A DNA stretch of 50,115 nt from Candidatus Cloacimonadota bacterium (GTDB taxonomy: Bacteria > Cloacimonadota > Cloacimonadia > Cloacimonadales > TCS61): NCBI GenBank assembly GCA_018645365.1, contig JABGOP010000008.1, positions 1,801 through 51,915 of the forward strand. The letters are read 5' to 3'. The notes under the pieces are model-generated. The model saw nothing but the letters and a program-made list of their open reading frames with translations. It was not told the DNA's origin and made no database searches. A program made the position numbers and the translations under genes. Within the stretch, counting starts at the first letter, position 1. Each line of letters starts with the position of its first letter. This document shows, piece after piece, positions 9,845 through 47,742 of the stretch.

Positions 9845-9881
9845 GTTTTTTTTAAAAAAATGAAAAATAAAAAGCAAGATG

Positions 9882-9898
9882 GAACGCAAATTGCGTTC
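9882..9898 (+). promoter_or_regulatory. palindrome in pilin leader
   Basis: GAACGCAA-a-TTGCGTTC is a perfect 8-bp inverted repeat around one base, 32 nt before the pilin ATG. It could be an operator or a short leader hairpin. Related sequence occurs before the exported-ferredoxin operon (30921) and before dsbD (47764, minus strand). Confidence 0.45.
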
Positions 9899-9929
9899 TA
9901 TTTTGGAAAATAAAAACGGAGGACAGAAA

Positions 9930-10358: not shown

Positions 10359-10387
10359 TAGTAACGACTGTAAACTTGGAGGATATT

Positions 10388-11443: not shown

Positions 11444-11453
11444 GTTTTAGAAA

Positions 11454-11864: not shown

Positions 11865-11873
11865 GGATGAATA

Positions 11874-12467: not shown

Positions 12468-12489
12468 TGAATAAATTTTGGAGGATAAA

Positions 12490-14271: not shown

Positions 14272-14297
14272 ATTAGAAAAAGATAAAAAGAGGAAGT

Positions 14298-15362: not shown

Positions 15363-15372
15363 GGAGCGAGAT

Positions 15373-17057: not shown

Positions 17058-17065
17058 GAGAGATT

Positions 17066-18430: not shown

Positions 18431-18438
18431 GGGGAAAG

Positions 18439-21048
18439 ATGAAAAAGATTTTATTGAGTTTAACATCGTTACTAATCCTTGTAGCGATGGTATTAGTTAT
18501 CACTTCGTGTGATGATAGAACAACAGATCTTCCAATATATTCAATTGATGGCATATTTGTAAGTTCAGAGACAATTTACGCAGACAATAACAATGAAACT
18601 TATGCCGAAGTTAGTGTAAAAATAGTTGATGATAGTGATATTCCAGTAGAGGGTGAAGTTGTTACTTTTAGTTGTAATGTTGGTAACATAGAAGGTAGTG
18701 CAACGACTAATTCGCAAGGTTTAGCAATTGTAAAATTCTATGATGTTGGCGTTATTGAAACAGCCAATATTGTAGCTACTTACAATGAAGAATCTGCAAC
18801 AACACAGATTGAAATTATTGCAATACCAATATATTCAATTGATGGCATATTTGTAAGTTCAGAGACAATTTACGCAGACAATAACAATGAAACTTATGCC
18901 GAAGTTAGTGTAAAAATAGTTGATGATAGTGATATTCCAGTAGAGGGTGAAGTTGTTACTTTTAGTTGTAATGTTGGTAACATAGAAGGTAGTGCAACGA
19001 CTAATTCGCAAGGTTTAGCAATTGTAAAATTCTATGATGTTGGCGTTATTGAAACAGCCAATATTGTAGCTACTTACAATGAAGAATCTGCAACAACACA
19101 GATTGAAATTATTGCAATACCAAGCTATTATATTGACCAGATGATAGCAACACCAGACACTATTTTTGCGGATGATAATATAACATATTCCACAATTAGT
19201 GTAATCGTAAAGGATAATGATGGGTTTAATGTTGCAGATGAACAGGTTAGCTTTTTATCTGATATTGGTAATCTAATAACATTGGCTACTACAAATGAAA
19301 ACGGGATAGCAGAAACCACTTTTTGGGATGTTGGTGATTTGGGAACAGCTACCATCGAAGCATTTGTGGGTGATCAATCGGCATCTGTAAATGTTGAAAT
19401 TATCGAAACACCTGCCATCGAATCGGTTGATCTTACGGTTGTACCGATGATTTTGGTTAATCAAGTTACACAAATTCGTGCTGAATGCTTGAATAATTTA
19501 GGTGAAATTCCATCAGATGGAACACTCATCAATTTTAGTACAAATATGGGCTATTTTGTAGATGCAGAAGGAAATGCAATCGGCACGCTTTACCAAACAA
19601 CTATTCAAAATGGAATTGCTACCTTGAATATGAATGCTGGTACAGAAAGTGGTGTTTGTAATGTAAGTGCTTACATTGGCGAAGTAATTGCCACAGAAAG
19701 CATTACTGTTTTACCGGGAAATCCAGTTAATATGATTTTAGTGCCAAGTACAGATACAGTTCCTGTAAATGGCGAAGATGTATTAATTACAGCTGAAGTT
19801 TTTGATAGATACTACAATCATGTGGCTGATGGTGTAGATGTAGCTTTCACAACTACAATTGGTTCAATCGGTGAATTGACTTACACAACTGGTGGTTTTA
19901 CCGAAACAACTTTTTCACCGGGCATCAGTTCAGGTATTGCCATTATAGAAGCTGTCGCAGATTCTGCTCAAACTTCAACGGCTATTTCGGTAGTTTCAGA
20001 TGCAGTTCATCACATTGAATTTGCTAGCACGAATCTTCTCGAAATGAGTGTTCAAGGTACAGGTGGACTCGAATCGGTTGACCTTCAAGTTAATTTATTC
20101 GATATGAATGGAAATTTTGTTTCTGAACCCTATACAGTTTATTTTGAATTAGTAAGTGCTCCCAATGGAACTACTATCAGTGAATCTGCTGCTTCTGTAA
20201 ATGGAATCGCAAATGTAGCTGTGAATAGCGGCATCGAGCCGGGCACTATTATTGTGCGAGCTTACATAGATGAATATATTTTTGCTACCAGATCACAAAT
20301 TGTAATTCACGCTGGACCAGCTGCATCAGTGGATTTTGGTATTGGTGAATTCAATTCTGGCGAAGAGTTTGGTAGTGGTTTGTGGCGTGTCGGCGTTTCC
20401 GCACTTGTGAACGATATTTACGGAAATCCAGTTGCAAACGGAACTGGCGTTTGGTTCTCCGTTTATGGTGATGCTGGCGAAACAGAAATCAGTTGGGCAA
20501 ACATTATAGCACAAGCTGGCGTTGGGAATGTGAGCGTAGATGGCGATTCATTGCCTGGCGTTGCATTTACTGCCTTAACTTATGATGGTAGCCACACAAA
20601 CGACGAAATTTATGTGAAAGCAAATATTGGTGATGACGATTTTTACGGTTGGCTTGCACTTCCTTTGAATCAACCAGTTATAGATATGGTACCAGTTCCA
20701 GCTCATGTGGATTTCTATCTTAACGGAAATAATGGACAAGATTTAACTGCTGAAATTGACATTGTAGTGACAGATTCTCAAGGTAACTTCATTCACGATG
20801 CACTTATCCAACTTTATGGCGATAGAGGGATTTTCCAATATTCTGCTGGTTATACGCAAGGTAGTGATTACCACATAGTGAAAACTGATGCAGCTGGTTA
20901 TGCAAAAGCTATTATAGAATTTCAGGTAGAAGAAGTTGCTCCTGCTGTTCCACCGCCAGGCCAGCAAACTGTGCAACTTAACGGCACAATTTTGGGTACA
21001 GAAACAATGGATCAAACAACGATAATTCTTTTAAATTATCAGCAGTAG
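18439..21048 (+). CDS. Ig-repeat (invasin/intimin-type) surface lipoprotein in pilus operon
   Basis: The 869-residue product has a lipoprotein signal with VITSC (lipid Cys 24) followed by Asp. The rest is a string of about seven bacterial Ig-like domains of the Big_1 kind, each with a G-x-x-V-x-F…G-x-A…F pattern. Domains one and two (98 residues each) are identical, also at DNA level. The third is a diverged copy. It lies 8 bp after pilQ and 9 bp before pilB in the same orientation, so it is expressed with the pilus. A role as adhesin or as an outer-membrane partner of the secretin is possible; Asp after the lipid Cys would be an inner-membrane signal in E. coli but that rule may not hold here. 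Confidence 0.82.
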   Translation: MKKILLSLTSLLILVAMVLVITSCDDRTTDLPIYSIDGIFVSSETIYADNNNETYAEVSVKIVDDSDIPVEGEVVTFSCNVGNIEGSATTNSQGLAIVKFYDVGVIETANIVATYNEESATTQIEIIAIPIYSIDGIFVSSETIYADNNNETYAEVSVKIVDDSDIPVEGEVVTFSCNVGNIEGSATTNSQGLAIVKFYDVGVIETANIVATYNEESATTQIEIIAIPSYYIDQMIATPDTIFADDNITYSTISVIVKDNDGFNVADEQVSFLSDIGNLITLATTNENGIAETTFWDVGDLGTATIEAFVGDQSASVNVEIIETPAIESVDLTVVPMILVNQVTQIRAECLNNLGEIPSDGTLINFSTNMGYFVDAEGNAIGTLYQTTIQNGIATLNMNAGTESGVCNVSAYIGEVIATESITVLPGNPVNMILVPSTDTVPVNGEDVLITAEVFDRYYNHVADGVDVAFTTTIGSIGELTYTTGGFTETTFSPGISSGIAIIEAVADSAQTSTAISVVSDAVHHIEFASTNLLEMSVQGTGGLESVDLQVNLFDMNGNFVSEPYTVYFELVSAPNGTTISESAASVNGIANVAVNSGIEPGTIIVRAYIDEYIFATRSQIVIHAGPAASVDFGIGEFNSGEEFGSGLWRVGVSALVNDIYGNPVANGTGVWFSVYGDAGETEISWANIIAQAGVGNVSVDGDSLPGVAFTALTYDGSHTNDEIYVKANIGDDDFYGWLALPLNQPVIDMVPVPAHVDFYLNGNNGQDLTAEIDIVVTDSQGNFIHDALIQLYGDRGIFQYSAGYTQGSDYHIVKTDAAGYAKAIIEFQVEEVAPAVPPPGQQTVQLNGTILGTETMDQTTIILLNYQQ
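18532..19123 (+). repeat. perfect tandem duplication, 294 bp x 2
   Basis: Bases 18532-18825 and 18826-19119 are the same by eye, and the match continues four bases into the next segment. The unit is 98 codons, one Ig-like domain, so the frame is kept. Identity with no silent change implies very recent duplication, active homogenisation, or an assembly artefact. Confidence 0.95.
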
Positions 21049-21057
21049 GAGAAATGA

Positions 21058-22764
21058 ATGTCTTTTAATCCTCAATTTGCCAGAATTGGCGAGATTTTGC
21101 TTCATAATAATGTGGTCTCGGAAGATCAAATAAAAGAAGCAATTATAAAACAAAATAATTTTGGGCTGAAGCTTGGTGAAACTCTCATCAAGCTCGGCTA
21201 TCTTACCGAAAAAGATTTGCTGACTACCCTGCACGAACAGCTTGAATGTCAGCTTATTGACGAAAATGAATTGATGGATTTAGATGAAAGTATCGTCAAA
21301 TTAATTCCTGAACCTTTTGCGACTGAAAACAGGGTAATCGCAATAAAAGAGGAAGCTGGGAAAATAGTTGTGGCGATGACAGATCCAGAAAATATCATCA
21401 TTCAAGATAGTTTGAAAAAAATTATTGGAAAGCCGATAATCCCAATTTTAATTGGCGAAAATACGTTAACCGATACACTCGAAAGATATTACAAAAGTAT
21501 TCGAACCACCTCTCAAGTGGAAGATGCGGTCGATAATTTTGATTTTGTAGCTGTAGATGATGATGAAAACGAGATTTCCATCGATTCGCAAGCTGATGCA
21601 GATGCACCAGTTGTGAAGTTGATAAATCTCATCATTACCGAAGCGATAAAATCCAATACGACCGATATTCACATTGAGCCTTTGACGAAAGAGACACGCG
21701 TTCGTTTCCGTATTGATGGTGCTTTACGTGAAGTGATGTCGCCACCAATCGGGATGCACGCTGGCTTGGTTTCCATTGTAAAGGTGATGTCGAAATTGAA
21801 TATTGCAGAACGAAGATTACCACAAGATGGTCATATTTCACTAAAAACAGCAATCAAAAGTGTCGATGTGCGTGTTTCCATCACACCTACCGTAACTGGT
21901 GAAAAAATAGTGATGCGTCTTTTGGATAAAGGTGATTTCGGATTTGATTTAGCAACTTTGGGTTTCAATGATGAAAACTCTACGATGTTTGCAAAATGGA
22001 TTCGTCGTCCTTACGGGATTATCATCGTTTCTGGCCCTACTGGTAGCGGTAAATCGACGACTCTTCACGCCGCTCTCAAAGAGATTAAAGATGTGGAAAC
22101 GAACATCGTAACGGTGGAAGACCCAGTTGAATATCGTTTAGATGGAATTACTCAAATCGAGACAAATTCTAAAATTGGTCTCACTTTTGGGAAATCACTT
22201 CGTTCGGTATTACGTCAGGACCCAGATATTGTTTTGATTGGTGAGATTCGTGATGAAGAAACAGCTGATATTGCGATTAAATTTTCATTAACGGGTCATT
22301 TGGTTTTTTCTACTTTACACGCTAACGATGCATCTTCGACTGTGACTCGTCTCATTGACATTGGCATCAAACCGTATTTAGTGGCATCTTCCCTAAATCT
22401 TGTGATTGCCCAGCGTTTGGTTCGTAAAATCTGTGAACATTGTAAGGCAGATTACACGCCAACTGCGGTAGAACTTGACGAAGCTGGCATTAACTCGGAA
22501 GAAGCAAAAGATATTAATTTCAAAATAGGAACAGGTTGTGTTCACTGTGATAACACCGGCTATTCTGGCAGAACGGGTATTTTCGAAATATTGGAAGTAA
22601 ACGCAGAAATCAGAAAACTTATCTTTGAAGGTGCAAATCAAGACTTGATTTACGATGCCGCAATGAAAAATAATATGCACACTTTGAATGAGAGTGCAAT
22701 TCAAAAAATGAAACACGGTTTGACCACGATTAAAGAAGTGATTAAACTTACAGTTTCTGATTAA
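21058..22764 (+). CDS. pilB: type IV pilus extension ATPase PilB
   Basis: PilB powers pilus assembly from the cytoplasm. The 568-residue protein has the N1 (MshEN-type) domain at about 1-150, which can bind c-di-GMP in some homologs, and a GspE/PilB ATPase core with Walker A GPTGSGKST, Asp box TVEDPVEYR, Walker B DIVLIGEIRD and His box STLHAND. Two CxxC pairs (CEHC and CVHC) form the zinc site typical of PilB. The adjoining GGDEF and HD-GYP genes make c-di-GMP control through the N-terminal domain plausible. Confidence 0.95.
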   Translation: MSFNPQFARIGEILLHNNVVSEDQIKEAIIKQNNFGLKLGETLIKLGYLTEKDLLTTLHEQLECQLIDENELMDLDESIVKLIPEPFATENRVIAIKEEAGKIVVAMTDPENIIIQDSLKKIIGKPIIPILIGENTLTDTLERYYKSIRTTSQVEDAVDNFDFVAVDDDENEISIDSQADADAPVVKLINLIITEAIKSNTTDIHIEPLTKETRVRFRIDGALREVMSPPIGMHAGLVSIVKVMSKLNIAERRLPQDGHISLKTAIKSVDVRVSITPTVTGEKIVMRLLDKGDFGFDLATLGFNDENSTMFAKWIRRPYGIIIVSGPTGSGKSTTLHAALKEIKDVETNIVTVEDPVEYRLDGITQIETNSKIGLTFGKSLRSVLRQDPDIVLIGEIRDEETADIAIKFSLTGHLVFSTLHANDASSTVTRLIDIGIKPYLVASSLNLVIAQRLVRKICEHCKADYTPTAVELDEAGINSEEAKDINFKIGTGCVHCDNTGYSGRTGIFEILEVNAEIRKLIFEGANQDLIYDAAMKNNMHTLNESAIQKMKHGLTTIKEVIKLTVSD

Positions 22765-22775
22765 AAAGGGAAATT

Positions 22776-24029
22776 ATGGCTAATTTTCAATACACGATAA
22801 AAGATGTAAAAGGTATTCGCGTTGAAGGTTCTATCAAGGCGAATACAATGGACGAAGCGATAGATAAATTGTCGAACGAAGGTGCTACAATTATCTCGAT
22901 TAAATCGATGGATGAAGGTGCCTTTAAAGGTAATTTGTCGTTGTTCGATAAATTTATGCTAGCTGTTTACAAGATTAGAACAAGCGTTAGTTTGAAAACA
23001 TTAGTGTTTTTTACGCGTCAGCTTTCGACAATGTTTTCGGCCGGTCTCACTATTGAAAAATCACTTACAAACCTTGCTAGCGAAGAAAAAAACAAGAAAT
23101 TCCAAAAAGTTTTAATAAAATTATCTGACGATATTCGTAAAGGTTTCAGTTTATCGGAAGCGATGGAGCAACATCCAGGTGTATTCAATCCGCTTTATGT
23201 TTCACTCGTGAAAGCTGGTGAAAAATCTGGAACGCTTCACACAGTTTTGGATAAACTTTCAGAATATTTGGAAAAAGTGGAAGACACACGCCGAAAAGTT
23301 GGTTCAGCAATGATGTACCCAGTATTTATTTTGGCATTTACGCTTTTGGTAGTGTGGGGATTATTCTATTTTGTAATTCCAATGTTTTCTGATGTTTATG
23401 CAAGTTTTGGGGCAGAATTACCAATTCCAACCAAAATTGCTATTGCCGTCAGTAATTTTATCACAAACAATGTTTTCTTTGCGGTGCTTATTCTTGTTGC
23501 GATAGCATTTTCAATTTTCATATTCTATCTTTCGGATAAAGGTCGATATATGATTGATAAATTTTTGATAAATTTACCAGTCATTGGTACGCTTTTACGC
23601 AATTCTATTATGAGTAAATTTTCCAGAACTTTCAGTATTCTAATGTTTTCTGGTGTTCCCATTATGGAAACAATGGAATTGGTGGAAAATGTGGTGCAAA
23701 ATGCAGTTGTGGAAAATGCGGTTAGAAAAGCGCGCATTATGGTAAAAGAAGGTTATAGTGTTGCTGGGGCTTTCAAAAAAACTGGCGTATTTCCATCTAC
23801 TCTTTTACAATTGATGGCAACGGGTGAAGAGACGGGAGATATGGATAGGTTGCTTGGTAAAGCGGCTGATTTCTTTGAGAAATTGGTGGATTCAGTGGTA
23901 GATCGTTTAACATCGCTCATCGAACCAATTCTCATCATCATTATGGCAGCTTTAGTTGGTACAATTATTGTGGTTATTTACTTGCCGATTTTTAATCTCG
24001 GTTTGGCGATGACTTCTGGCATGAAATAA
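22776..24029 (+). CDS. pilC: type IV pilus platform protein PilC
   Basis: PilC/GspF is the inner-membrane platform on which pilins are added. The 417-residue product has two GspF cytoplasmic domains (about 70-195 and 275-395, the first with FTRQLSTMFSAGLTIEKSL, the second with FSRTFSILMFSGVPIMETM) separated by membrane segments and a C-terminal membrane helix. A terminator follows at once, closing the main pilus operon. Confidence 0.95.
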   Translation: MANFQYTIKDVKGIRVEGSIKANTMDEAIDKLSNEGATIISIKSMDEGAFKGNLSLFDKFMLAVYKIRTSVSLKTLVFFTRQLSTMFSAGLTIEKSLTNLASEEKNKKFQKVLIKLSDDIRKGFSLSEAMEQHPGVFNPLYVSLVKAGEKSGTLHTVLDKLSEYLEKVEDTRRKVGSAMMYPVFILAFTLLVVWGLFYFVIPMFSDVYASFGAELPIPTKIAIAVSNFITNNVFFAVLILVAIAFSIFIFYLSDKGRYMIDKFLINLPVIGTLLRNSIMSKFSRTFSILMFSGVPIMETMELVENVVQNAVVENAVRKARIMVKEGYSVAGAFKKTGVFPSTLLQLMATGEETGDMDRLLGKAADFFEKLVDSVVDRLTSLIEPILIIIMAALVGTIIVVIYLPIFNLGLAMTSGMK

Positions 24030-24037
24030 AAAACAAA

Positions 24038-24070
24038 AGCCCAAATTGATTGTCAGTTTGGGCTTTTTTT
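24038..24070 (+). terminator. intrinsic terminator after pilC, abutting pilD start
   Basis: AGCCCAAA (24038-24045) pairs with TTTGGGCT (24057-24064) around an 11-nt loop and runs into a T tract to 24070. The pilD ATG begins four bases later, so the hairpin occupies the place of its ribosome binding site. Confidence 0.88.
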
Positions 24071-24073
24071 ATA

Positions 24074-24811
24074 ATGATATACTTTTTTATTTTTCTTTTT
24101 GCACTTGCATTTGGCAGTTTTTTCAATGTTTGCATTGTTCGCCTTCCGCAAAAACAATCGTTAATCCCACCATCACACTGTCCAAAATGTAATTATAAAA
24201 TCACGAAATTACAGAATATTCCCATTTTTAGTTATTTATTTTTGAGAGGAAAATGTAAAAATTGTGGTTTGAAAATTGCGATTCACTATTTTTTAGTAGA
24301 ACTAATCACGCCCATAATTTTTATTTTGCTTTATTTGAAATTTGGTTTAACTCTCGAATTTGCAAAACACATCATTTTTTTTTCTTTTGGAATCATTATT
24401 TTTTTTATCGATTATTTTCACCAAATAATTCCTGATAAATTATCGTTACCGCTAATTTTGATTGGTATTATTTTTGCAATTTTAGCAAAAAATTACACAC
24501 TAATTTATGGTGCTGTTTTTGGCTTTAGTTTTTTTTACATTCTTGGTTATTTTTTTCAATATTTTACCAAAAAAGATGGCATTGGTGGCGGTGATATTAA
24601 GTTAACTACTGCAATTGGTGCATTTTTTGGTTTGAGTGGTGTTGTTTTCACGATTGTAGTTGCCGCGGTGATAGCGCTCATTTTTTTGATCGCCATTGGT
24701 CATGCTAAACGCACCTATTTTCCTTTCGGACCTTTCTTGATTTTTGCTTCATTTTTGTATCTGTTTTTTGGTGATCTAATCACTTATCATTACTGGAAAT
24801 TATTTCTTTAA
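24074..24811 (+). CDS. pilD: prepilin peptidase PilD
   Basis: PilD is the inner-membrane aspartyl protease that cleaves and N-methylates prepilins. The 245-residue product has the N-terminal FGSFFNVCIVRLP motif, a zinc-type four-Cys set (CPKC and CKNC), and the two catalytic Asp motifs, DYFHQIIPD and GGGDIK. It should process the pilins encoded upstream. I start it at ATG 24074, which matches the usual N-terminus; the frame is open to a TTG at 24050 that lies inside the terminator. No Shine-Dalgarno is visible. Confidence 0.93.
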   Translation: MIYFFIFLFALAFGSFFNVCIVRLPQKQSLIPPSHCPKCNYKITKLQNIPIFSYLFLRGKCKNCGLKIAIHYFLVELITPIIFILLYLKFGLTLEFAKHIIFFSFGIIIFFIDYFHQIIPDKLSLPLILIGIIFAILAKNYTLIYGAVFGFSFFYILGYFFQYFTKKDGIGGGDIKLTTAIGAFFGLSGVVFTIVVAAVIALIFLIAIGHAKRTYFPFGPFLIFASFLYLFFGDLITYHYWKLFL

Positions 24812-29180: not shown

Positions 29181-30226
29181 TGCCAAAAATTTTAGTAATC
29201 GATGATAATATAGATAATCTTATCACTGTAAATGCAGTTTTGAAGAGCTTAATGCCGAATTCTAAAATATCCACATCTATTTCTGGGAAAGAAGGAATAG
29301 AAAAAATAAGAAGAGATGAACCCGATGTGATTTTACTTGATATTCAAATGCCAGAAATGGATGGATTTGAAGTTTGTAAAATTATCAAATCAGATGAAAA
29401 AATTAGGCATATTCCGATAATTTTGATTACTGCTTCCCAAAGTAGTTCACAAGATAGAGCAAATGGGCTGAAATTAGGTGCCGATGCTTTTATCTCGAAA
29501 CCGATTGATGAAGTGGAATTGATTGCCCAAATTAAAGTGGCTTTACGCATTAAAAAATCGGAAGATTTGTTGCGGAATGAAAAAAACATTTTGGAAGATA
29601 AAGTGCGTGAAAAAACGGAACATTTACGCAAAAGTTATGATAAATTGATGGTTTTATTCGATGGGATAATTAACACTCTTGTCGCAGTAGTAGAGGCACG
29701 AGATCCTTATACCGCTGGTCATCAGCAGAATGTTAATAAACTTGCAGTTGCCATTGCAAACGAACTAAATTTAGAGGGAAAGGTAGTTGAATCCATTCAT
29801 ATTGCTTCCATTTTGCACGATATTGGAAAAATATACATTCCTACAGAAATTTTGAGCAAACCAGGAATGTTGACTGATATTGAATTTGAAATGTTAAAAA
29901 AACATCCAGAATTTGGCTATGAAATCTTGAAAAATATAAATTTTGAATTACCAATCGCCGAAATTGTTCATCAACATCATGAAAAGATTGATGGTTCTGG
30001 ATATCCACGGAAATTGAAAGGTGATGATATTTACATTGAAGCAAAAATATTGAGTGTAGCAGATGTGGTTGAAGCAATTATGTCGCACCGACCGTATCGT
30101 GCTTCATTAGGTGTAAATGTTGCTTTGAATGAAATAGTGGAAAATCGAGGCATTTTATATGATGCCAAAGTGGTAGATGCTTGCGTCAAAATTGTGCGCG
30201 GAAATAATATTTTTGAGAAAAAATAA
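29180..30226 (+). CDS. response regulator with HD-GYP c-di-GMP phosphodiesterase domain
   Basis: The 348-residue protein has a receiver domain (1-120; phospho-Asp in LLDIQMP), a linker coiled-coil, and an HD-GYP domain. The latter shows HDIGK, HPEFGYEIL, HHEKIDGSGYP and SVADVVEAIMSHRPYR, i.e. all residues expected of an active enzyme that degrades c-di-GMP. The ATG overlaps the kinase stop by one base, so the hybrid kinase is its likely phosphodonor. Together with the GGDEF gene it forms a make-and-break c-di-GMP unit beside the pilus operon. Confidence 0.94.
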   Translation: MPKILVIDDNIDNLITVNAVLKSLMPNSKISTSISGKEGIEKIRRDEPDVILLDIQMPEMDGFEVCKIIKSDEKIRHIPIILITASQSSSQDRANGLKLGADAFISKPIDEVELIAQIKVALRIKKSEDLLRNEKNILEDKVREKTEHLRKSYDKLMVLFDGIINTLVAVVEARDPYTAGHQQNVNKLAVAIANELNLEGKVVESIHIASILHDIGKIYIPTEILSKPGMLTDIEFEMLKKHPEFGYEILKNINFELPIAEIVHQHHEKIDGSGYPRKLKGDDIYIEAKILSVADVVEAIMSHRPYRASLGVNVALNEIVENRGILYDAKVVDACVKIVRGNNIFEKK

Positions 30227-30230
30227 AAAA

Positions 30231-30255
30231 ATCCCCACAAAGTGGGGATTTTTTA
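30231..30255. terminator. bidirectional terminator between HD-GYP and CBS genes
   Basis: ATCCCCAC (30231-30238) pairs with GTGGGGAT (30242-30249) around AAA, with T runs on both strands. It serves the two convergent genes. Confidence 0.92.
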
Positions 30256-30969: not shown

Positions 30970-31512
30970 ATGAAAAAAATATTAATTTTGACACTAAGTT
31001 TGTTTTTGTTATTTTTCATGATTCATCTGTTTTCTGAAGCTGAAAAAACAGTGGAGGTTACAAAATATAATGGAAAATTGAAGCAAATTGGCGATAATTG
31101 GTTTTTAAATACAGGTGAAGATTTTTTTGAATTATCTTTAGCACCTTCATCATTTTTGGCAGAAAATAAAATTGAGTTAGTATCGAAATCAAAAGTTTAT
31201 TTGAATGGAAATTTCAAAGAAGATGTAATTGATGTTTTTACAATTTTCACCGAAAAAGACAGCGTCAATTTACGTGATGAGTTTGGTAATAAATTGTGGG
31301 AAATGTCTAAAATTAAACCGTATTTAGTTAATGCAAAAAGATGTATTGGATGTCGTTTGTGCACCTTTAACTGTCCCACAAATGCCATCGAGATGGTGAA
31401 TGGTGTTGCCGTCATCGATGCTGATAATTGCATTGCTTGTGGTATTTGTGCAGATGGAAATGGTAAAAAATATCGTGGTTGTCCAGTTGGAGCAATCTCG
31501 CAAATAGAATGA
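30970..31512 (+). CDS. exported 2[4Fe-4S] ferredoxin-domain protein A
   Basis: The 180-residue product starts with MKKILILTLSLFLLFFMIHL, a Sec-type signal or membrane anchor without a twin arginine. A ~90-residue region of no known family follows, then a bacterial ferredoxin domain. Ligand cysteines are 125, 128, 131 and 135 (C-x2-C-x2-C-x3-CP) and 154, 157, 160 and 171; the last gap is ten residues rather than three. It should carry two [4Fe-4S] clusters outside the cytoplasmic membrane. It opens a seven-gene operon with very short spacings; its stop overlaps the next start (ATGA). I know no characterised homolog with this layout. Confidence 0.85.
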   Translation: MKKILILTLSLFLLFFMIHLFSEAEKTVEVTKYNGKLKQIGDNWFLNTGEDFFELSLAPSSFLAENKIELVSKSKVYLNGNFKEDVIDVFTIFTEKDSVNLRDEFGNKLWEMSKIKPYLVNAKRCIGCRLCTFNCPTNAIEMVNGVAVIDADNCIACGICADGNGKKYRGCPVGAISQIE

Positions 31513-32063
31513 ATTTTTTTCTGTTTTTAACTCTTTTATTGACTTTAATGAGTTGCTCAGATACAATCACAAAAAGCGATTTTTCGCCAGTTGAATCAAT
31601 GAATGAGCTTTCATTAACAGTGGATATTCCATTTTCTGAGATGGCAGATTCGCTCATTATCAAATATCATTTTTTAGAAAAAATTACAGAAACAAACTGG
31701 GAAACTGTTTTTGATTTTGAGACTATAGAATATGCACCAAGAATTATTTTTGAATTTTCCAAAATTGATTCAAATTTTTTACCAATGAATTTTACCGATT
31801 ACTATTTTTGTTTCGGTATTAAAACAAAAAATAGAGAAGTTATTTCTGATTCAATTTTTACAGTTGATGGCAATGTGAAAACAAAAGTTATTTCGCCAAA
31901 ATGCATCGGTTGTTGGGAGTGTGTTTCAGCTTGCGATTATGATGCAATTTTCCAAAATGCTAACAAAGCGGTGATAGATTTAGAAAAATGCGTGCGGTGT
32001 GGTAAGTGCATTACAGCATGTAATTTAGACGGGAATAAAGCAATAGAATTTTACATTAAATAA
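31509..32063 (+). CDS. exported 2[4Fe-4S] ferredoxin-domain lipoprotein B
   Basis: The 184-residue product has a lipoprotein signal ending LTLMSC (lipid Cys 16). A ~110-residue beta-rich middle region is unrecognised. The C-terminal ferredoxin domain has cysteines 132, 135, 138, 142 and 161, 164, 167, 171, both with the C-x2-C-x2-C-x3-C spacing. I start at ATG 31509, which overlaps the previous stop by four bases and gives the lipobox at the right distance; the frame is open 30 bases further upstream without one. Protein B is predicted to be membrane-anchored on the periplasmic side or in the outer membrane. Confidence 0.85.
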   Translation: MNFFLFLTLLLTLMSCSDTITKSDFSPVESMNELSLTVDIPFSEMADSLIIKYHFLEKITETNWETVFDFETIEYAPRIIFEFSKIDSNFLPMNFTDYYFCFGIKTKNREVISDSIFTVDGNVKTKVISPKCIGCWECVSACDYDAIFQNANKAVIDLEKCVRCGKCITACNLDGNKAIEFYIK

Positions 32064-32072
32064 GGAGATTTT

Positions 32073-32609
32073 ATGAAAAAACAAATATATTTAGCATTAA
32101 TTGGTATCATTATTTTGGGGTCATTATTTGCAATTTCAAGATTAGTTTATCAAATTGATCCTGGACCTTGCGTGAATTGTGGTCATTGTGTAAACCCTTG
32201 TCCGAATGACGCTATTTATTATGACACAACGATTTACAATTATCAAATTGATACTGACCTTTGTGATGGTTGTGGGACTTGCGTAAATTATTGTAACCGG
32301 AATGCCATTCATCCAGTTGAAGTTAGTTCTGATGATAACGAAATTCAAAGTATAGATGAAATGATTAGCAATTATCCTAACCCATTTAAAAATTCAACAA
32401 CTATTTCATTTGCATTGAAAAATAATAATTCTGATGTGTCTATTGAAATTTATAATTTAAAGGGGCAGATGATTGAAAAATTAGATGTTCAAAATTCGCA
32501 AACAGAAATTACTTGGAATGCTGATAAACTACCTTCAGGAACTTATTTTTATAAATTACGAGCAAACGGTAAATTTAGCTCAATGAAAAAAATGACTTTG
32601 ATTAAATAA
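32073..32609 (+). CDS. secreted 2[4Fe-4S] ferredoxin with C-terminal surface-sorting domain
   Basis: The 178-residue product has a signal peptide (about 1-20, cut near LFA), a ferredoxin domain with cysteines 33, 36, 39, 43 and 64, 67, 70, 74, and then a complete sorting domain at about 99-178 (SNYPNPFKNSTTISF … EIYNLKGQ … GTYFYKL … KKMTLIK). The same domain ends the other secreted proteins in this window and is used for transport across or anchoring to the outer membrane in T9SS-type systems. A ferredoxin with such a tail implies a low-potential Fe-S protein at the cell surface. GGAG precedes the ATG. Confidence 0.88.
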   Translation: MKKQIYLALIGIIILGSLFAISRLVYQIDPGPCVNCGHCVNPCPNDAIYYDTTIYNYQIDTDLCDGCGTCVNYCNRNAIHPVEVSSDDNEIQSIDEMISNYPNPFKNSTTISFALKNNNSDVSIEIYNLKGQMIEKLDVQNSQTEITWNADKLPSGTYFYKLRANGKFSSMKKMTLIK

Positions 32610-32848
32610 TGAGAAGAAATCTAATTGTAATTTTACTGGTAATAATTTCAACACTGTTTGCAGTCGCAAATTGGAAGATTATTGTCGATAAATCTGAATG
32701 TGTCGGTTGTTCGGATTGCGTAAAAGTATGTCCAGTTGATGCAATTCAAATAATTGATGGCAAGGCAATAATCAATGTTGAAGAATGTATTAGTTGCGAA
32801 ATTTGTGTAAAATCTTGCACTTATGATGCGATTTTAAAAGTAAAATGA
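32609..32848 (+). CDS. small exported 2[4Fe-4S] ferredoxin D
   Basis: A 79-residue protein: signal or anchor MRRNLIVILLVIISTLFAVA, then a bare bacterial ferredoxin with cysteines 31, 34, 37, 41 and 60, 63, 66, 70. The two Arg near the start do not form a full Tat motif (no S/T-R-R-x-F-L-K). Its ATG shares a base with the previous stop and its own stop overlaps the next start by four, so translation is coupled. Confidence 0.85.
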   Translation: MRRNLIVILLVIISTLFAVANWKIIVDKSECVGCSDCVKVCPVDAIQIIDGKAIINVEECISCEICVKSCTYDAILKVK

Positions 32849-33084
32849 AAAAAGTCATATTATCAGCTTTATTGGTTGTTATTTTTCTGATTGCATGCGA
32901 TAAAATTAGTAAGGCTCAATTTTTTGTGGATAGCTCAGCTTGTAATTCTTGTGGTATTTGCATTTCAGTTTGTCCAGCCGATGCAATCGAATTTGATGAA
33001 AATAATAAAGCAATTATTGACCAAACTAAATGTACTCAATGTGGCGAATGCATTCTAGTTTGTCCTCAAGATGCAATCTACTAA
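32845..33084 (+). CDS. small exported 2[4Fe-4S] ferredoxin lipoprotein E
   Basis: A 79-residue lipoprotein: signal with VIFLIAC (lipid Cys 18) followed by Asp, then a ferredoxin with cysteines 33, 36, 39, 43 and 63, 66, 69, 73. Both halves have the standard CxxCxxCxxxCP. The mature part is little more than the cofactor domain, which points to an electron-transfer function. The OM barrel gene starts at the next base. Confidence 0.86.
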   Translation: MKKVILSALLVVIFLIACDKISKAQFFVDSSACNSCGICISVCPADAIEFDENNKAIIDQTKCTQCGECILVCPQDAIY

Positions 33085-34218
33085 ATGAAACGGATAATTT
33101 TAGCAGTTTTATTGTTGCCTTTTGTTTTGAATGCTGATATTTCGCATTTATTTAAAACAGACTTTAGGCAAATTTCAATATCAGATTCATCAGCTTTGAA
33201 TACAAAAGTATTATACCAGTTAGAGAGCGAAATTGCACCAAATATATTTTTGCAAATTTATAATAAATATTACCAATCTGAAAAAATAATGAGTATGCGT
33301 AACGTAGATAAATATAATGAGGTAAAGCTGAAGCTAGAGTTTATTGGGAACATGTTTTACGGTAAATTGCAAATAGGCGATAGACGCTTCGATGCAGATT
33401 ACAAAGAGGATACTTTTAGTGCCAATATTTACCAAAAGATAAAACAAAAAAATGTGCAAAATGTTGATGTGAGAATAAAAAATAATTGGCGTAATTTACA
33501 GATATCATTCTTTAGTAAATATCGAAATTTGGCATTTGATTCTTATTTAAATGATGATATGAGTTCTGAATTTGACCGAGATTTATATCTGAAATCAGGG
33601 ATTATTTATAAAATTAATGATGAGTTTAATTTTTTTTGTGATGGTTATTTCAAAGACGATTTGAATATCTCAAACTTATTAAATCAGACTATTTTTAACA
33701 GTGGAATTCAATTTCAAAAAAGGATAAATTATTCCAGTTTTTTAGAAGCGAAAACTGAGTATCAATATGATAGCTTTAGTCAATTTGATCATAATTATTT
33801 TAGTCAGTTGCGTCTTACAAAAAAGCTTAGCAATAATGTTGCTGGATTTGTCTCATACTTGAATAGGTCGTGCTTTGAACAGAATAAATTTTACCGTATT
33901 TCGACAGTTTTACGCACTCATGTTAAATTTAGCGATTTTACGAAATTTTCGCAAGATTCATTTTATATTCTGGGATGCAAATATAATCCAGAAAATTTAG
34001 GAACAAACGCATTCGTGGAATTTAAACAGATATTTAAATCAAGAATATTTTTTTTTGGTGGATTAAAAATTGCTCCAGAATTATTTAAAAAATATGATTT
34101 TGGTATTGAATATTTATTTTCATCAACCAAAAATATTTGGTTAAAAGCAGAAGAAATAGTTTATAAAAATAGATTTTCAAAAAATGTGATTTCAGCTGGA
34201 ACTTCGCTGAGGTTTTAG
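33085..34218 (+). CDS. predicted outer membrane beta-barrel protein
   Basis: The 377-residue product has a signal peptide (cut near LNA), no long hydrophobic helices, many alternating amphipathic strands with aromatic girdles, and a terminal Phe (SLRF), all typical of an OM barrel. I do not recognise a specific family. It directly follows ferredoxin E without a gap and is followed after 8 bp by the CcdA-like gene. In this operon it could be a porin-like sheath for, or partner of, the Fe-S proteins. Confidence 0.72.
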   Translation: MKRIILAVLLLPFVLNADISHLFKTDFRQISISDSSALNTKVLYQLESEIAPNIFLQIYNKYYQSEKIMSMRNVDKYNEVKLKLEFIGNMFYGKLQIGDRRFDADYKEDTFSANIYQKIKQKNVQNVDVRIKNNWRNLQISFFSKYRNLAFDSYLNDDMSSEFDRDLYLKSGIIYKINDEFNFFCDGYFKDDLNISNLLNQTIFNSGIQFQKRINYSSFLEAKTEYQYDSFSQFDHNYFSQLRLTKKLSNNVAGFVSYLNRSCFEQNKFYRISTVLRTHVKFSDFTKFSQDSFYILGCKYNPENLGTNAFVEFKQIFKSRIFFFGGLKIAPELFKKYDFGIEYLFSSTKNIWLKAEEIVYKNRFSKNVISAGTSLRF

Positions 34219-34226
34219 GAGATAGA

Positions 34227-35192
34227 ATGTTCGAAACTTTACTAAATGGTGCTGCCTTGGGGTTAGCTACTGGCACTTCATGCCTTGCAACTTGTTCCCC
34301 AATTTACCTTCCTTACCTTATTTCGGAAGATAGAAAATTAAGTAAAAGTTTATTGGCGGTAATGGAAATATCTGCTGGTAGATTTGTTTCATATTTGGCT
34401 TTTGGCGCATTAGCTGGTTTTGCGGGTGCAAAAATAGCGACTACAAACCGAGAAATATTTACCTCGATTGCCTACATTTTACTATCAATTTATTTAGTCT
34501 TTTCGGCGGTACGAACAAATCGAAAATCTAAAGGTTGTAATATCCCTAAAATGACAAAATTTACTCAAAATGGAATATTTTTAGGTATTTTAACGGGAAT
34601 TAACTTTTGTCCTTCTTTTCTTATTGCACTTTCTAAAGCGGTAGATTTGGGCGGTGTAACAAGTGGCATGATGCTTTTTCTTGGCTTCTTCTTTGGAACA
34701 TCTGTCTTTCTGATTCCACTCGCTTTTATCGGCCAACTATCGAAAGTTTCTATCATTAAGACCGTTGCTCAATATGCTTCAATTCTTGTTGCAATCTGGT
34801 TTACATTCGCTGGCGTGAATGGCTTGAAACATTATTATGAACACCAAAAATCCGCTGAGAATACACGCTATGTGGAAGTTTTTAAACAAGAAAACAATAT
34901 AATCATCATTAGTTCGCAAGATAATTGGGAATATTTTAGCATTTTGCGTGATTCTTTGCAAAAATATTCGGCTAACAAAATAACGATTGCAGAAGGGAAT
35001 ATTGGTATTTTAAAAAATATTCCATCCCCCAAAATTTTGTTTTTAGATGCTGAAATACCAGTAAATGAACTTAATGAATTTGATTATTTTGTAGTTGAAA
35101 ATAACCATGATATTTCAAAAATAATTAAGTTTGTACAACAATATACATTTAAAACGAGCACGAATTTGCATTGGGAATTCAAAAAAAAATAA
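34227..35192 (+). CDS. CcdA/DsbD-type inner-membrane transporter with C-terminal extension
   Basis: The 321-residue product has six predicted membrane helices (about 5-205) of the DsbD_2/CcdA (TauE/SafE-annotated) type. TM1 carries Cys 19 and Cys 23 in SCLATCSPIYLPYL and TM4 carries Cys 128 in GINFCPSF, the positions of the CcdA redox pair that passes reducing equivalents from cytoplasmic thioredoxin outward. A soluble C-terminal part (about 206-321) has no Cys and no family I recognise. As last gene of the exported-ferredoxin operon it could supply electrons, or keep cluster-ligand cysteines reduced before metal insertion. Confidence 0.82.
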   Translation: MFETLLNGAALGLATGTSCLATCSPIYLPYLISEDRKLSKSLLAVMEISAGRFVSYLAFGALAGFAGAKIATTNREIFTSIAYILLSIYLVFSAVRTNRKSKGCNIPKMTKFTQNGIFLGILTGINFCPSFLIALSKAVDLGGVTSGMMLFLGFFFGTSVFLIPLAFIGQLSKVSIIKTVAQYASILVAIWFTFAGVNGLKHYYEHQKSAENTRYVEVFKQENNIIIISSQDNWEYFSILRDSLQKYSANKITIAEGNIGILKNIPSPKILFLDAEIPVNELNEFDYFVVENNHDISKIIKFVQQYTFKTSTNLHWEFKKK

Positions 35193-42967: not shown

Positions 42968-44398
42968 TTAGAATCTAGTTGAAACAGTTAGTCGCATTCC
43001 ATCGAATGCTGCCTGATTCTTACAAACACCATTTCGGCAGACTACACCACCTTTTTCTTTTCCATAAAATAATCGTACATCAGTATTATTGAATATCGTT
43101 GTAGCAAGTTCTCCACCTATCCAGAATTCACTGTCATCTCCATCTTCCGATTCTCCGATCTGATTTTCAACAGCAACAGACAGTGAATAGTTTCCAATTG
43201 AAATATCTGTCTGCAAACGTGGTTCAAGATGCGAATGACTGTCTGTTACCTTATCTTCTTCCTTATATTGATATTCAGCTTTTACCAGAACCGGATTATC
43301 CTTAATTAGAAAATCGAAAGTAAGTGTAGGTGTTATTTCTTTATACCAGTGATTGGAATTTTCATTGAATTGTTCAAGGATTTCATTTTCAACTTTGAAT
43401 GACCAGTCTTCAAAATCATGTTTGAATTCGGTATAAAGATTTGAGAGTCTGACTTTGTAATTACTGTTCCAGCCTTCTGCATAATTTATCACAAATTCAT
43501 TTTCGTAGTTAGGAAGGAAGCGGATCTCTCCCATAACTCCTTCTTCATCCTTTCCCGCATCCCAACTGTGTTCCAATTGTTGACCGCTATGATTTACCAT
43601 GGGAAGATCAGAAATTCTCACATCAAAATTCTCATAATTTTTATATGTACTCGTCAGAGTAAATTTATCGAGATAAGTTGTAATGTTGGAATAAATTGCT
43701 GTTCCATTTTCATCTAAATCATCTTTGCTTGTCGCATATTCAGCCATTAGGTCAAATAGGGAAGATGAATAATTAAATTTTCCAGCATAAATTATTCTAT
43801 TGTTGAAATCATCTTCATCAGCATCGATAAGTTCTCTATGCAGAACGTAACTTCCTCCAATAGTTAAATTAGCTATTATGTTGAAATCCGCATCAAATGC
43901 ACCGACTTGATCATATTCATCATCGAAGTCAGGATTGGGGTTATCACATTCCATCAAACCGCCGAATAATTGTAGCTGCCATTTATCGTAAACAGGATTT
44001 AAATAACCACCGATTAATCTGGAATTGAGATCGAAATCGTTATCATAGAAATTGTGTAAAACTATACCGGAACCGATAACTGCCTCGAAAGTTCCAACTT
44101 GAGCAAACCAGTGATCTGATTCAAACTGCAAATAGTATTCATCAAAGTAATTTTCATTTTCTTCTAAACTAGTTGCAAATTTATCAAACTTAGGTTTGTA
44201 GTAATCATATTTTACTCCAGCAAGGAAGTTATTATAATGCAATTGTAACTGAAACTTATCTGAGAAGTAATTATTTGTTTCATTAAATCTATCGGAGCGG
44301 ATATATTGAAATTCGTTTAATCCTGAAAAACTCAGCTCGGAATAGAGTAGATTTGTAGTTAGACATATTAAAATAATTAATAAGAAAGTTTTTTTCAT
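42968..44398 (-). CDS. DUF6029-like outer membrane beta-barrel protein
   Basis: The 476-residue product has a signal peptide, a long run of beta-barrel-type strands and a terminal STRF. The end of the chain contains GVVCRNGVCKNQ (Cys 454 and 459), a paired-Cys feature I associate with the DUF6029 family from Bacteroidota, in which such barrels are found near TlpA and Omp28-like genes. The role is unknown; in this operon it may host or be oxidised by the redox proteins. Assigned from pattern memory. Confidence 0.72.
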   Translation of the reverse strand: MKKTFLLIILICLTTNLLYSELSFSGLNEFQYIRSDRFNETNNYFSDKFQLQLHYNNFLAGVKYDYYKPKFDKFATSLEENENYFDEYYLQFESDHWFAQVGTFEAVIGSGIVLHNFYDNDFDLNSRLIGGYLNPVYDKWQLQLFGGLMECDNPNPDFDDEYDQVGAFDADFNIIANLTIGGSYVLHRELIDADEDDFNNRIIYAGKFNYSSSLFDLMAEYATSKDDLDENGTAIYSNITTYLDKFTLTSTYKNYENFDVRISDLPMVNHSGQQLEHSWDAGKDEEGVMGEIRFLPNYENEFVINYAEGWNSNYKVRLSNLYTEFKHDFEDWSFKVENEILEQFNENSNHWYKEITPTLTFDFLIKDNPVLVKAEYQYKEEDKVTDSHSHLEPRLQTDISIGNYSLSVAVENQIGESEDGDDSEFWIGGELATTIFNNTDVRLFYGKEKGGVVCRNGVCKNQAAFDGMRLTVSTRF

Positions 44399-44408
44399 AT
44401 TCTCACCA

Positions 44409-44942
44409 TTAATTTTCTGACGCTTCAGTTTTCAAAGTGTCTATTTTGGTTTCGCTAACTTCCTGTTCTTCAAACCATCTCACAATCACTTCTTCATAAT
44501 GTTTTTCATCACCTCTCTGATAACCGGTATGATCGTAAATAATTGTTCCATCTTGATCAATGATCAGAGTACGTGGGATATTTGTAACGTTAAATTGTTT
44601 TTGAACAATTTTCTTTGGGTCGAATAGCGTATGAAATTTAAAACGATTCGATTTAATATGAGAAACAGCAGCAGATTTTTTTCGTGGTTTATCAACATTG
44701 ATTGCCACAACATTAACATTCGGATATTTTTCATGTAATTCATTTACTTTAGGAAGTCCGTTTTTACAAGGAACACACCATGTTGCCCAAAAGTCTAAGA
44801 TTACTAAACCTTCTTTTTGAAAATCTGATAATTTAACCTGTTTACCTTCAATATTTTCCAATTTAAATTCACCGGCTTTTTCAGCAGCAAATATTTGTAC
44901 TGCTAAAAGCATGATCAGTATAGTTACAAAAACATTTTTCAT
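44409..44942 (-). CDS. TlpA-family periplasmic thioredoxin
   Basis: A 177-residue exported thiol-disulfide oxidoreductase: signal peptide ending IFAA, active site WCVPC (Cys 56 and 59), cis-Pro at NIPRT (Pro 124), and an acidic tail. TlpA/ResA proteins usually act as reductants fed by DsbD or CcdA, which matches the dsbD gene two places upstream in the operon. Gaps to both neighbours are about 10 bp. Confidence 0.92.
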   Translation of the reverse strand: MKNVFVTILIMLLAVQIFAAEKAGEFKLENIEGKQVKLSDFQKEGLVILDFWATWCVPCKNGLPKVNELHEKYPNVNVVAINVDKPRKKSAAVSHIKSNRFKFHTLFDPKKIVQKQFNVTNIPRTLIIDQDGTIIYDHTGYQRGDEKHYEEVIVRWFEEQEVSETKIDTLKTEASEN

Positions 44943-44953
44943 TATATATCTCC

Positions 44954-46075
44954 TTAATTATTTAATGAAACTTCGATAGTATTGTATGCAGTGCATGTGT
45001 TTTGATTATATGGTGTCTCTAAAGTTTGAACCCAGATCACCAGAGTAATATCTTCGGGTAAACCGGTTGCATTATCCATATACCATTGTGGGAGAACATC
45101 AAGTTCATTGATTTCAAAATTAACAGGATCATCCAAATTCAAAGCTGAAATATCTATAGTTACTCGCTTTAAAGCAATGTTGTGATGCGGGTCGCCATGA
45201 TGATTCGGGTATTCCTCATTATAATCTTCCATCAAAACAGCAACCAATGTTAGATTATTAGTTGATATAGCAGTATCAACTTCAATCTGGACAGAACCAG
45301 TAAGTAAAGAATCAGTAAGATTAGTTTGTATATCAGTTAATGAAATTAAGGGTGGTTCCTGTAGAAGTGGAATGATGGCTGTCTCAATTTCAGTTTGAAC
45401 TTCCTCAGCGCTTGGTGCAGAATAAATTATGTTTGCATTTCCATTAACAATTCCAAGAGGTAATGTACCAGTATTTGGATAGTAACCAAATACATCAGCA
45501 AAATCACCGGCGAGCTGATCACCAACATGATATTCCACATAAGAGAATCTACTACCGTACTGCATTCTGAGGTTATGCAAAGCTTCTTCTGCACTTGGGC
45601 AATTGGAACACCATTGTCCTGTAAATAGCTCTATAACAACATTTCTCATATCAGCCTGGTTGCCATAAAACTGGTATGAATCTTCAGTTTCTATTAAAAC
45701 ATCAGACATTAAAGTATCCATAAATGTGGTTTCTGAATCAAGACTTGTAACCAATAATCTCCAATCTATTGTAAAAGCGTTTGTATCAATTATTGTGGCT
45801 TCAAAGGTCAAAGGCATATTTATATAAGAAAAAGCTTTATAAAATATTTCAACATCAGATTTAATTAAGCCATTATTACTATAATCATTATGAAAGAAAT
45901 TCATAATGTCGGAAACATCTTCGGTTGGCAATATGGTTTCAATTGAATCTGCAAAAGTAGTGAAGAAATCGATTATGTAATTTTCATCCACAATCTCTGG
46001 TTCGAATTTATGTTCAAATCGGTCACAAGCAAAGATAGAGAGAAATATTAAGCCCAAGACAAATATTTTATTCAT
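44954..46075 (-). CDS. Omp28-like lipoprotein with CxxC thioredoxin domain
   Basis: A 373-residue lipoprotein (LSIFAC, lipid Cys 17). Residues ~25-135 are unrecognised. Residues ~145-260 form a thioredoxin-like domain of the Omp28 kind with IELFTGQWCSNCPSAE (Cys 156 and 159) and a Leu-Pro at the cis-Pro place (TLPLGIVNG). A beta domain follows. It is the Cys counterpart of the UxxC domain in the selenoprotein at the end of the same operon, which supports reading UGA there as Sec. Its ATG overlaps the dsbD stop by one base. Confidence 0.85.
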   Translation of the reverse strand: MNKIFVLGLIFLSIFACDRFEHKFEPEIVDENYIIDFFTTFADSIETILPTEDVSDIMNFFHNDYSNNGLIKSDVEIFYKAFSYINMPLTFEATIIDTNAFTIDWRLLVTSLDSETTFMDTLMSDVLIETEDSYQFYGNQADMRNVVIELFTGQWCSNCPSAEEALHNLRMQYGSRFSYVEYHVGDQLAGDFADVFGYYPNTGTLPLGIVNGNANIIYSAPSAEEVQTEIETAIIPLLQEPPLISLTDIQTNLTDSLLTGSVQIEVDTAISTNNLTLVAVLMEDYNEEYPNHHGDPHHNIALKRVTIDISALNLDDPVNFEINELDVLPQWYMDNATGLPEDITLVIWVQTLETPYNQNTCTAYNTIEVSLNN

Positions 46076-47742
46076 TATTTATCTCCTAAATTTTCTTTTA
46101 ATTTGTTTAGAATCATCTCTTTTGTGATAATTTCTGGGAAGACAATTGGTGCTTTTCCGTCGATGAAAAGTACATAAAGAGGAACACCAGCTCTGTCAAA
46201 TTTTGCTAACCATTCATTAATGATATCGTTTTTCTTCGTATTGTCACCGCGTAACATTTGCACATCATATTTTTTGAAAGCACTTTCTATTTTATCTGTG
46301 AAAAGAACGCTGGTTTCGTTTGTTTTGCAAGTAAGACACCATTCAGCTCCAAAATCTAAAAATACAGATTTCCCATTATTTTGATATTCAGCTAAAAGTT
46401 CTGGTGAGAACTTTTGCCAATCGCGTGGATAGTGGGCGTTATCTTCTGTTTGATGTGCATCAGCAGGAGCGTAATCCAAGAGGACAAATCCCAAACTGAC
46501 AGCTAATAAAATAGCTGAAATAGTAGCAATCCACTGTTTTCTTTTGGAAAATTCTGGACGAGCAAATCTACCGTAAATCCAAGCTGACATTCCCAAAACG
46601 ATAAGGTAAAGGAGTAGATTCAGAAAATCGCTATTATTAACCAAAAATGAGAGTGAACGAATGAGATAGAATGCGGTGAGGAAGAGCAAAAATCCCATAA
46701 TTTCTTTGAAAATATTCATCCATTCGCCGGGTTTTGGAATGATTTTTATTGCTTTTGGCCATATTCCTAGTAGGATAAATGGAAAAGCAAGTCCAAGACC
46801 GATAAGAATGAAAATCGCGAAAATCATTATGGCAGATTGTGAAAATGCGAATCCAAGAGCCGCTCCCAAAAATGGGGCAGTGCAGGGTGTAGCTAAAAGT
46901 ACTGCGAAAATTCCACTCAAAAATGAACCGGTTAATCCGCCTTTCATTGAAGCTTTGGTTGCAGTTTGCATTCCCGGTGCACGGATGATAAATACATCAA
47001 AAAGTGAAAGTGCAAAAACGAAAATTAAAATGAGCAGACCAGTTACAAAACCTGCATTTTGGAATTGGAAGCCCCAACCAACATTTTCACCAGCCATTTT
47101 CAAAATAACGATTGCAGTCGCCATGACAATGAACGAAACTACGATGCCAGCTGTGTAGGCAAATGAACTTCGCAAAATTTGTTTTTGGTCTTGCTGGCTT
47201 TGCTTTACTAAGCTCATCGCTTTGATGGAAAGCACTGGTAAAACGCAAGGCATAATGTTGAGGATAAGTCCACCAACGAAAGCCATTAATAAAAATTTAA
47301 TTAATTCTTTTGTATTTGACTTTTCGGTAGGAATCTGATTTCCAAGAGGCAGTTCAATTTCCACCTCTTCTGGAAACATGCAAGTGCCAGATTCTAAACA
47401 CATTTGGTAGCTGGCGTAAATTTTTATGTTGTCTATTTTTGCATTTTCACCAACTGAAAATTTCTTTATTAAAAGCACATTGCCATTGTATTGCACCAAA
47501 CCGTCTGCTGATTTATGACCTTCAGGATAGATGGTTTCTTCGAAATTTAGGCCATCAATCTCATCAGTTTCCACATAAAAGAAATCTTTTTGCAGGTTGA
47601 TGTGCATTTTCTCTGGAATAGAAAATGTTACCTCTATTTGCGAATCGTTTATGATTGCTGAAACTACTTCATTTGTGTTTTGAGCAAAAAGGAAAACGCT
47701 CATCAACAATACTACCGCTAAACTAATTTTCTTAAAACCCAT
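46075..47742 (-). CDS. dsbD: thiol:disulfide interchange protein DsbD
   Basis: DsbD carries electrons from cytoplasmic thioredoxin to the periplasm through three redox modules. All six cysteines are visible in the 555-residue protein: alpha domain CLESGTC (115, 121), membrane domain IMPCVLP (166) and ATPCTAP (287), and gamma thioredoxin domain EWCLTC (469, 472). Eight membrane helices fall between about 148 and 425. GGAGG precedes the ATG. It heads a six-gene redox operon and should power the TlpA, Omp28-like and selenoprotein oxidoreductases encoded after it. Confidence 0.96.
   Translation of the reverse strand: MGFKKISLAVVLLMSVFLFAQNTNEVVSAIINDSQIEVTFSIPEKMHINLQKDFFYVETDEIDGLNFEETIYPEGHKSADGLVQYNGNVLLIKKFSVGENAKIDNIKIYASYQMCLESGTCMFPEEVEIELPLGNQIPTEKSNTKELIKFLLMAFVGGLILNIMPCVLPVLSIKAMSLVKQSQQDQKQILRSSFAYTAGIVVSFIVMATAIVILKMAGENVGWGFQFQNAGFVTGLLILIFVFALSLFDVFIIRAPGMQTATKASMKGGLTGSFLSGIFAVLLATPCTAPFLGAALGFAFSQSAIMIFAIFILIGLGLAFPFILLGIWPKAIKIIPKPGEWMNIFKEIMGFLLFLTAFYLIRSLSFLVNNSDFLNLLLYLIVLGMSAWIYGRFARPEFSKRKQWIATISAILLAVSLGFVLLDYAPADAHQTEDNAHYPRDWQKFSPELLAEYQNNGKSVFLDFGAEWCLTCKTNETSVLFTDKIESAFKKYDVQMLRGDNTKKNDIINEWLAKFDRAGVPLYVLFIDGKAPIVFPEIITKEMILNKLKENLGDK

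Follow-up and report, generated by a model that had tools for sequence, protein, structure and literature searches.

Exported ferredoxins and a predicted outer-membrane barrel in a conserved Cloacimonadota operon: a possible haem-free electron conduit

In a stretch of 50,115 nucleotides from a Candidatus Cloacimonadota bacterium (contig JABGOP010000008.1 of assembly GCA_018645365.1, positions 1,801 to 51,915; hereafter, the window), seven genes lying head to tail on the + strand at positions 30970-35192 might encode a cytochrome-free (haem-free) conduit that carries electrons through the cell envelope, a reading to which we give a probability of roughly 0.5. With slightly less confidence, we propose that conduits of this type, which would consist of Sec-exported iron-sulfur (Fe-S) proteins and a barrel and be matured outside the cytoplasm, exist in Cloacimonadota and some Fibrobacterota that lack cytochromes and twin-arginine translocation (Tat) or do not use them for this purpose. 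The conduit reading is favoured because ten predicted clusters sit behind export signals, because a NapH-like membrane protein shares the operon in relatives, one ferredoxin carries a surface-sorting tail and an outer-membrane barrel is predicted, and because the core gene order and the co-occurrence of its parts recur across genomes. To our knowledge, all outer-membrane electron conduits known so far use haem proteins. For Fe-S proteins that are exported, the general view is that they acquire their clusters and fold in the cytoplasm before exit by Tat. The gene set described here is at odds with both haem-only conduits and Tat-only Fe-S export, in genomes without TatC and cytochrome c assembly, and no description of an Fe-S outer-membrane conduit or of exported ferredoxins of this kind was found in the open-licence literature. 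The genes, and a hairpin upstream of them, are as follows.

30970-31512, + strand: FdA, exported 2[4Fe-4S] protein; an N-terminal domain of ~100 residues, then the dicluster domain (Fer4, 5e-12)
31509-32063, + strand: FdB, lipoprotein with a C-terminal 2[4Fe-4S] domain; lipobox LMS↓C (Fer4, 6.5e-10)
32073-32609, + strand: FdC, signal peptide, 2[4Fe-4S] domain and C-terminal type IX secretion system (T9SS) type A sorting domain (PF18962, TIGR04183)
32609-32848, + strand: FdD, small exported 2[4Fe-4S] protein with an LFAVA↓N-like cleavage site (Fer4, 2.9e-13)
32845-33084, + strand: FdE, small 2[4Fe-4S] lipoprotein; lipobox LIA↓C (Fer4, 4.5e-17)
33085-34218, + strand: predicted outer-membrane beta-barrel of 20 strands with a signal peptide (AlphaFold2, Foldseek)
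34227-35192, + strand: CcdA/DsbD_2-type membrane protein with a C-terminal soluble domain (PF13386, 4.1e-18)
30226-30254, no strand assigned: bidirectional terminator-like hairpin (13-pair stem, T/A tails on each side)

The original prediction, made from the letters and translations of the window, had described five consecutive 2[4Fe-4S] genes with eight ligand cysteines each and up to ten clusters, followed without gaps by a beta-barrel and a CcdA/DsbD-like protein. This layout was confirmed: Pfam detects Fer4/dicluster domains in all five ferredoxin genes (30970-33084), which have 8 ligand Cys apiece and 10 predicted clusters altogether, and the barrel (20-strand model) and the PF13386 gene follow, with spacings of 0-9 bp or short overlaps throughout. 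The preferred start of FdB is the ATG at 31509, overlapping the FdA stop, and an earlier TTG was discarded. The dicluster pattern CX2CX2CX3C...CX2CX2CX3C is invariant in FdD and FdE; the 8 Cys of FdD are invariant in the alignment with relatives, including Fibrobacterota, and in FdE the lipobox Cys is conserved along with the 8 ligand Cys. The second cluster motif of FdA carries an insertion (CX2CX2CX10C), and the FdA N-terminus is a K-rich/hydrophobic segment, with the signal and the domains retained in homologs. A chance grouping of genes was ruled out by the recurrence of the same order in other genomes and by export N-termini that are atypical of the host's sampled 2[4Fe-4S] proteins. Upstream, the strong hairpin lies between a response-regulator gene and a convergent CBS-domain-like gene and sets the operon region apart from the former.

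Signal calls, made by sequence rules, assign lipoboxes to FdB and FdE and Sec-type signals to FdA, FdC and FdD. An N-terminal hydrophobic segment is present in all five ferredoxins and is preceded by Lys or Arg in four, so that, by the positive-inside rule, the cluster domains are placed outside the cytoplasm. By the same measure, the sampled HdrA-like, RnfB/RnfC-like and small (56-67 aa) ferredoxins of the host genome have no export-type N-terminus, which makes the exported set distinct from the cytoplasmic ferredoxins; the exception with a hydrophobic N-terminus among the sampled host Fe-S proteins is the NapH-like membrane protein. The possibility that these are cytoplasmic ferredoxins with wrongly assigned starts was rejected, given that an export-type hydrophobic N-terminus was found in 95 of 110 distinct open reading frames (ORFs) with at least two ferredoxin motifs from the loci analysed, the other 15 being mostly unrelated neighbours, truncated or mis-started. 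Topology and sorting signals point outward, and the cytoplasmic placement that the original prediction had named as one of two refutations failed to materialize.

Export by Sec signals or lipoboxes rather than by a full Tat motif, as originally claimed, is supported both by the signals themselves and by the absence of TatC, for which no match over the family cut-off was found in the host genome or in 57 of the 59 relatives (controls positive). FdD starts with MRR, yet its signal is short, very hydrophobic and of the Sec type, and none of the other four has an RR pair near the N-terminus. The want of Tat was ruled out as the sole reason for the use of Sec: TatC is present in two genomes from other phyla that carry the cluster (Fibrobacterota G059 and Chitinivibrionales G061), and the ferredoxin signals of these two contain no RR pair, although KR pairs are present at locus L133. 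With this caveat, Sec routing seems to be intrinsic to the system.

Calling the five genes polyferredoxins was right as to their ferredoxin domains and overlooked the C-terminal half of FdC, a sorting domain of T9SS type A (PF18962 Por_Secre_tail, 1.2e-15; TIGR04183, 5.7e-13). Because the host genome also encodes SprA (SprA_N, G000:C18), the sole T9SS component searched for, FdC probably reaches the cell surface via T9SS. The same tail is found on three other proteins of the window. Homologs of FdB are lipoproteins of 320-1400 aa that combine fibronectin type III domains with ferredoxin domains at the termini; many relatives encode a 600-1400 aa version with ferredoxin domains near both ends, and the C-terminal one is FdC-like in relatives that have no separate FdC. 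Where a T9SS-tailed FdC stands alone (the window, L086 and L126), the FdC-like domain is missing from any big lipoprotein. Judging from this swap, the big lipoprotein may have an outward-facing C-terminal domain, too. At 1417 residues, an ORF with a C-terminal FdC-like ferredoxin domain (L111:4078-8331) is the longest homolog of this lipoprotein encountered.

The barrel gene produced no match by sequence in Pfam, NCBIfam or the Protein Data Bank (PDB). The AlphaFold2 model, generated from a 22-sequence alignment, has 20 strands (pLDDT 87.5, pTM 0.76), and its Foldseek neighbours are outer-membrane barrels, both receptors and porins (probability 1.00, best E 3e-9). Standard geometry with 20 strands and an assumed shear of about 24 yields, by our own estimate, a backbone radius near 19 A, and the modelled lumen could in principle hold a 60-residue ferredoxin. 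The window contains a second envelope redox cluster on the - strand (42968-47742), which consists of a DUF6029 barrel (PF19494, 42968-44398), a thioredoxin-like protein, a putative lipoprotein weakly matching DUF1223 and a full DsbD with a C-terminal thioredoxin domain; kinship between the DUF6029 barrel and the operon barrel was ruled out. In the CcdA-like protein, C19, C23, C104 and C128 are invariant across a 37-member alignment that includes Fibrobacterota. Comparison of its model with PDB folds gave weak matches, none of them convincing, and profile searches of the PDB detected no relative of either the barrel or the CcdA-like protein.

The gene set is real and conserved beyond what had been claimed: a search of other genomes, the check originally suggested, showed that it recurs in the same order and that relatives keep both the signals and the barrel, so that the second proposed refutation, homologous operons without these features, failed as well. 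The relatives that carry a name are Cloacimonadota (Tenebribacter and Zophobacter among them) and records from Delongbacteria, Fibrobacterota, Chitinivibrionales and Coatesbacteria, several of them incomplete metagenome bins, so that absences in relatives are provisional. An FdD-FdE-type pair lies upstream of the CcdA-like gene in about 26 of 42 loci with this gene; many of the loci without the pair sit on short contigs and some are paralogs (L125, L129-L132). The order FdD-FdE-barrel-CcdA is kept across Cloacimonadota and in Fibrobacterota and Chitinivibrionales. In particular, loci from a fibrobacterote (L133), a member of Chitinivibrionales (L137) and an unclassified bacterium (L135) share with the host operon the succession of an exported ferredoxin, a lipoprotein, an FdD-type protein, an FdE lipoprotein, a barrel-like and a CcdA-like protein, and in L133 a Fer4_5 membrane protein is encoded directly 3' of the cluster. 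Across 60 genomes, with kinship ignored, co-occurrence with FdE is significant for the barrel (p=4e-8) and for the CcdA-like protein (p=1.5e-6).

In many relatives, the operon additionally includes a gene for a membrane-bound, NapH-like Fe-S protein (about 262 aa), and the host genome encodes such a protein as well (G000:C23:33232-33969; PF12801, Fer4_5, 4e-16). No haem-type genes are present in the operon, and the cytochrome c assembly domain (PF01578) has no match in the host genome and is absent from 58 of the 59 relatives (controls positive). With cytochrome c assembly and TatC both missing, a cytochrome conduit is unlikely.

In the proposed mechanism, cytoplasmic electrons, from reduced ferredoxin or a quinol, would enter the NapH-like inner-membrane Fe-S protein and pass to the Sec-exported 2[4Fe-4S] proteins, with FdA in the periplasm and FdB and FdE lipid-anchored. 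The outer membrane would be crossed at the 20-strand barrel, with a small ferredoxin (FdD or FdE) at or in its lumen, and the electrons would exit via FdC, the surface ferredoxin delivered by T9SS. The CcdA-like protein would import reducing power so that the ligand cysteines stay reduced until the clusters are assembled outside the cytoplasm, a role modelled on that of CcdA for cytochrome c. Occupancy of the clusters, complex formation and the flow of electrons with its direction are what we infer from these features. Cloacimonadota have been described, in a genome study, as fermentative, with electrons disposed of to protons (PMC8542988). Outward flow, by which fermentation electrons would be disposed of, is the likelier direction and would fit this lifestyle, inward flow being the alternative.

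Several observations weigh against this proposal. The NapH-like gene of the host is not linked to the operon, and the co-occurrence of NapH-like genes with FdE is just loose (p=0.005); sequence conservation of the barrel is poor; the CcdA-like gene is absent from some operons (L086, L087), and some of its paralogs (L125, L129-L132) have no ferredoxins nearby and occupy a different gene context. We also know of no route for the insertion of [4Fe-4S] clusters after Sec export, a question that the gene set renders testable. The ferredoxin-free CcdA-like paralogs of L129, L130 and L132 adjoin genes for an ATP-binding-cassette-like protein and a polytopic membrane protein.

A rival reading is reductive uptake, in which the barrel would import a cofactor or a complexed metal that the exported ferredoxins would reduce, for instance Fe(III) to Fe(II) for FeoB, electrons being spent on nutrients rather than on respiration. 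Siderophore and cobalamin receptors are indeed among the nearest folds of the barrel, and Fur-like and FeoB-like genes lie directly 3' of the barrel in L086 (L086:9710-12431), which hints at a link to iron; however, these neighbours were found at one locus only, the 377-aa barrel has no predicted plug domain, and ten clusters plus a surface T9SS ferredoxin exceed the needs of a single reduction site. We regard this explanation as unlikely. Somewhat less probable still is a periplasmic electron supply, whereby the ferredoxins would hand on electrons received from the NapH-like protein to enzymes of the periplasm or the cell surface, similarly to NapGH, with the barrel being unrelated or a structural partner. 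The pairing of a NapH-type protein with exported ferredoxins and the frequency of T9SS-tailed proteins in the window are consistent with this scheme, but it is the barrel, and no reductase gene, that recurs in the clusters. The least probable of the three, in our judgement, is that the Cys-rich exported proteins bind metals or buffer oxidants and thiols (as an iron store or as protection against metals or O2) and are reduced by the CcdA-like protein, with no electrons crossing the envelope. The four invariant Cys of the CcdA-like partner speak for such a function, as does the fact that extracytoplasmic cluster insertion is unproven; nevertheless, the invariant dicluster cysteines of FdD and FdE are expected for clusters and not for thiol buffering, and the barrel, the NapH-like protein and the T9SS tail would be left unexplained.

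The conduit reading invites comparison with the porin-cytochrome conduits (MtrCAB, PioAB and Geobacter Pcc/Omb-Oma-Omc), to which the likeness is in logic only: an inner-membrane donor, periplasmic carriers, an outer-membrane barrel and a surface lipoprotein or carrier, all co-encoded. The carriers are 2[4Fe-4S] ferredoxins here and multihaem cytochromes there. The MtrB barrel has 26 strands, compared with 20 predicted strands and no sequence match in the present case, and the barrel gene lies directly 3' of the ferredoxins in the same way that those conduits pair barrel and carriers. The operon falls outside the porin-cytochrome family, lacking both multihaem c-type cytochromes and their assembly machinery; it may, by analogy, work like one. 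The original idea of a porin-cytochrome-like wire gains support from the linked NapH-like inner-membrane protein, from the T9SS tail of FdC and from the lack of both TatC and cytochrome c assembly, without extending to membership in that family. The NapGH-type quinol dehydrogenase modules likewise combine a Fer4_5 membrane protein with an exported ferredoxin. NapG, however, is exported by Tat, and the host has neither a twin-arginine signal on these proteins nor TatC; here, there are five small Sec-type ferredoxins, lipoproteins, a T9SS cargo and an outer-membrane barrel, and no Nap genes were seen in the clusters. With CcdA/DsbD_2 thiol-redox transporters, the last protein of the operon shares the PF13386 domain and Cys in the first and in a later helix, but it differs in its four invariant Cys, its C-terminal domain of about 115 residues and its ferredoxin neighbours in place of cytochrome c genes.

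Finally, other authors have proposed that type IV pili transfer electrons in Cloacimonadota, and the window itself contains a large type IV pilus/type II secretion-like cluster (9879-24811), with PilT, PilB, PilC, PilD, a secretin and PilM/N/O-like proteins recognized from the translations. Conductive pili have been put forward to explain how members of this phylum might pass electrons directly to other species, with no envelope conduit named (PMC7382037, PMC13082233). The operon described here would supply one and, if the conduit reading is true, is a candidate for the means by which Cloacimonadota in digesters carry out the direct electron transfer that has been proposed for them.

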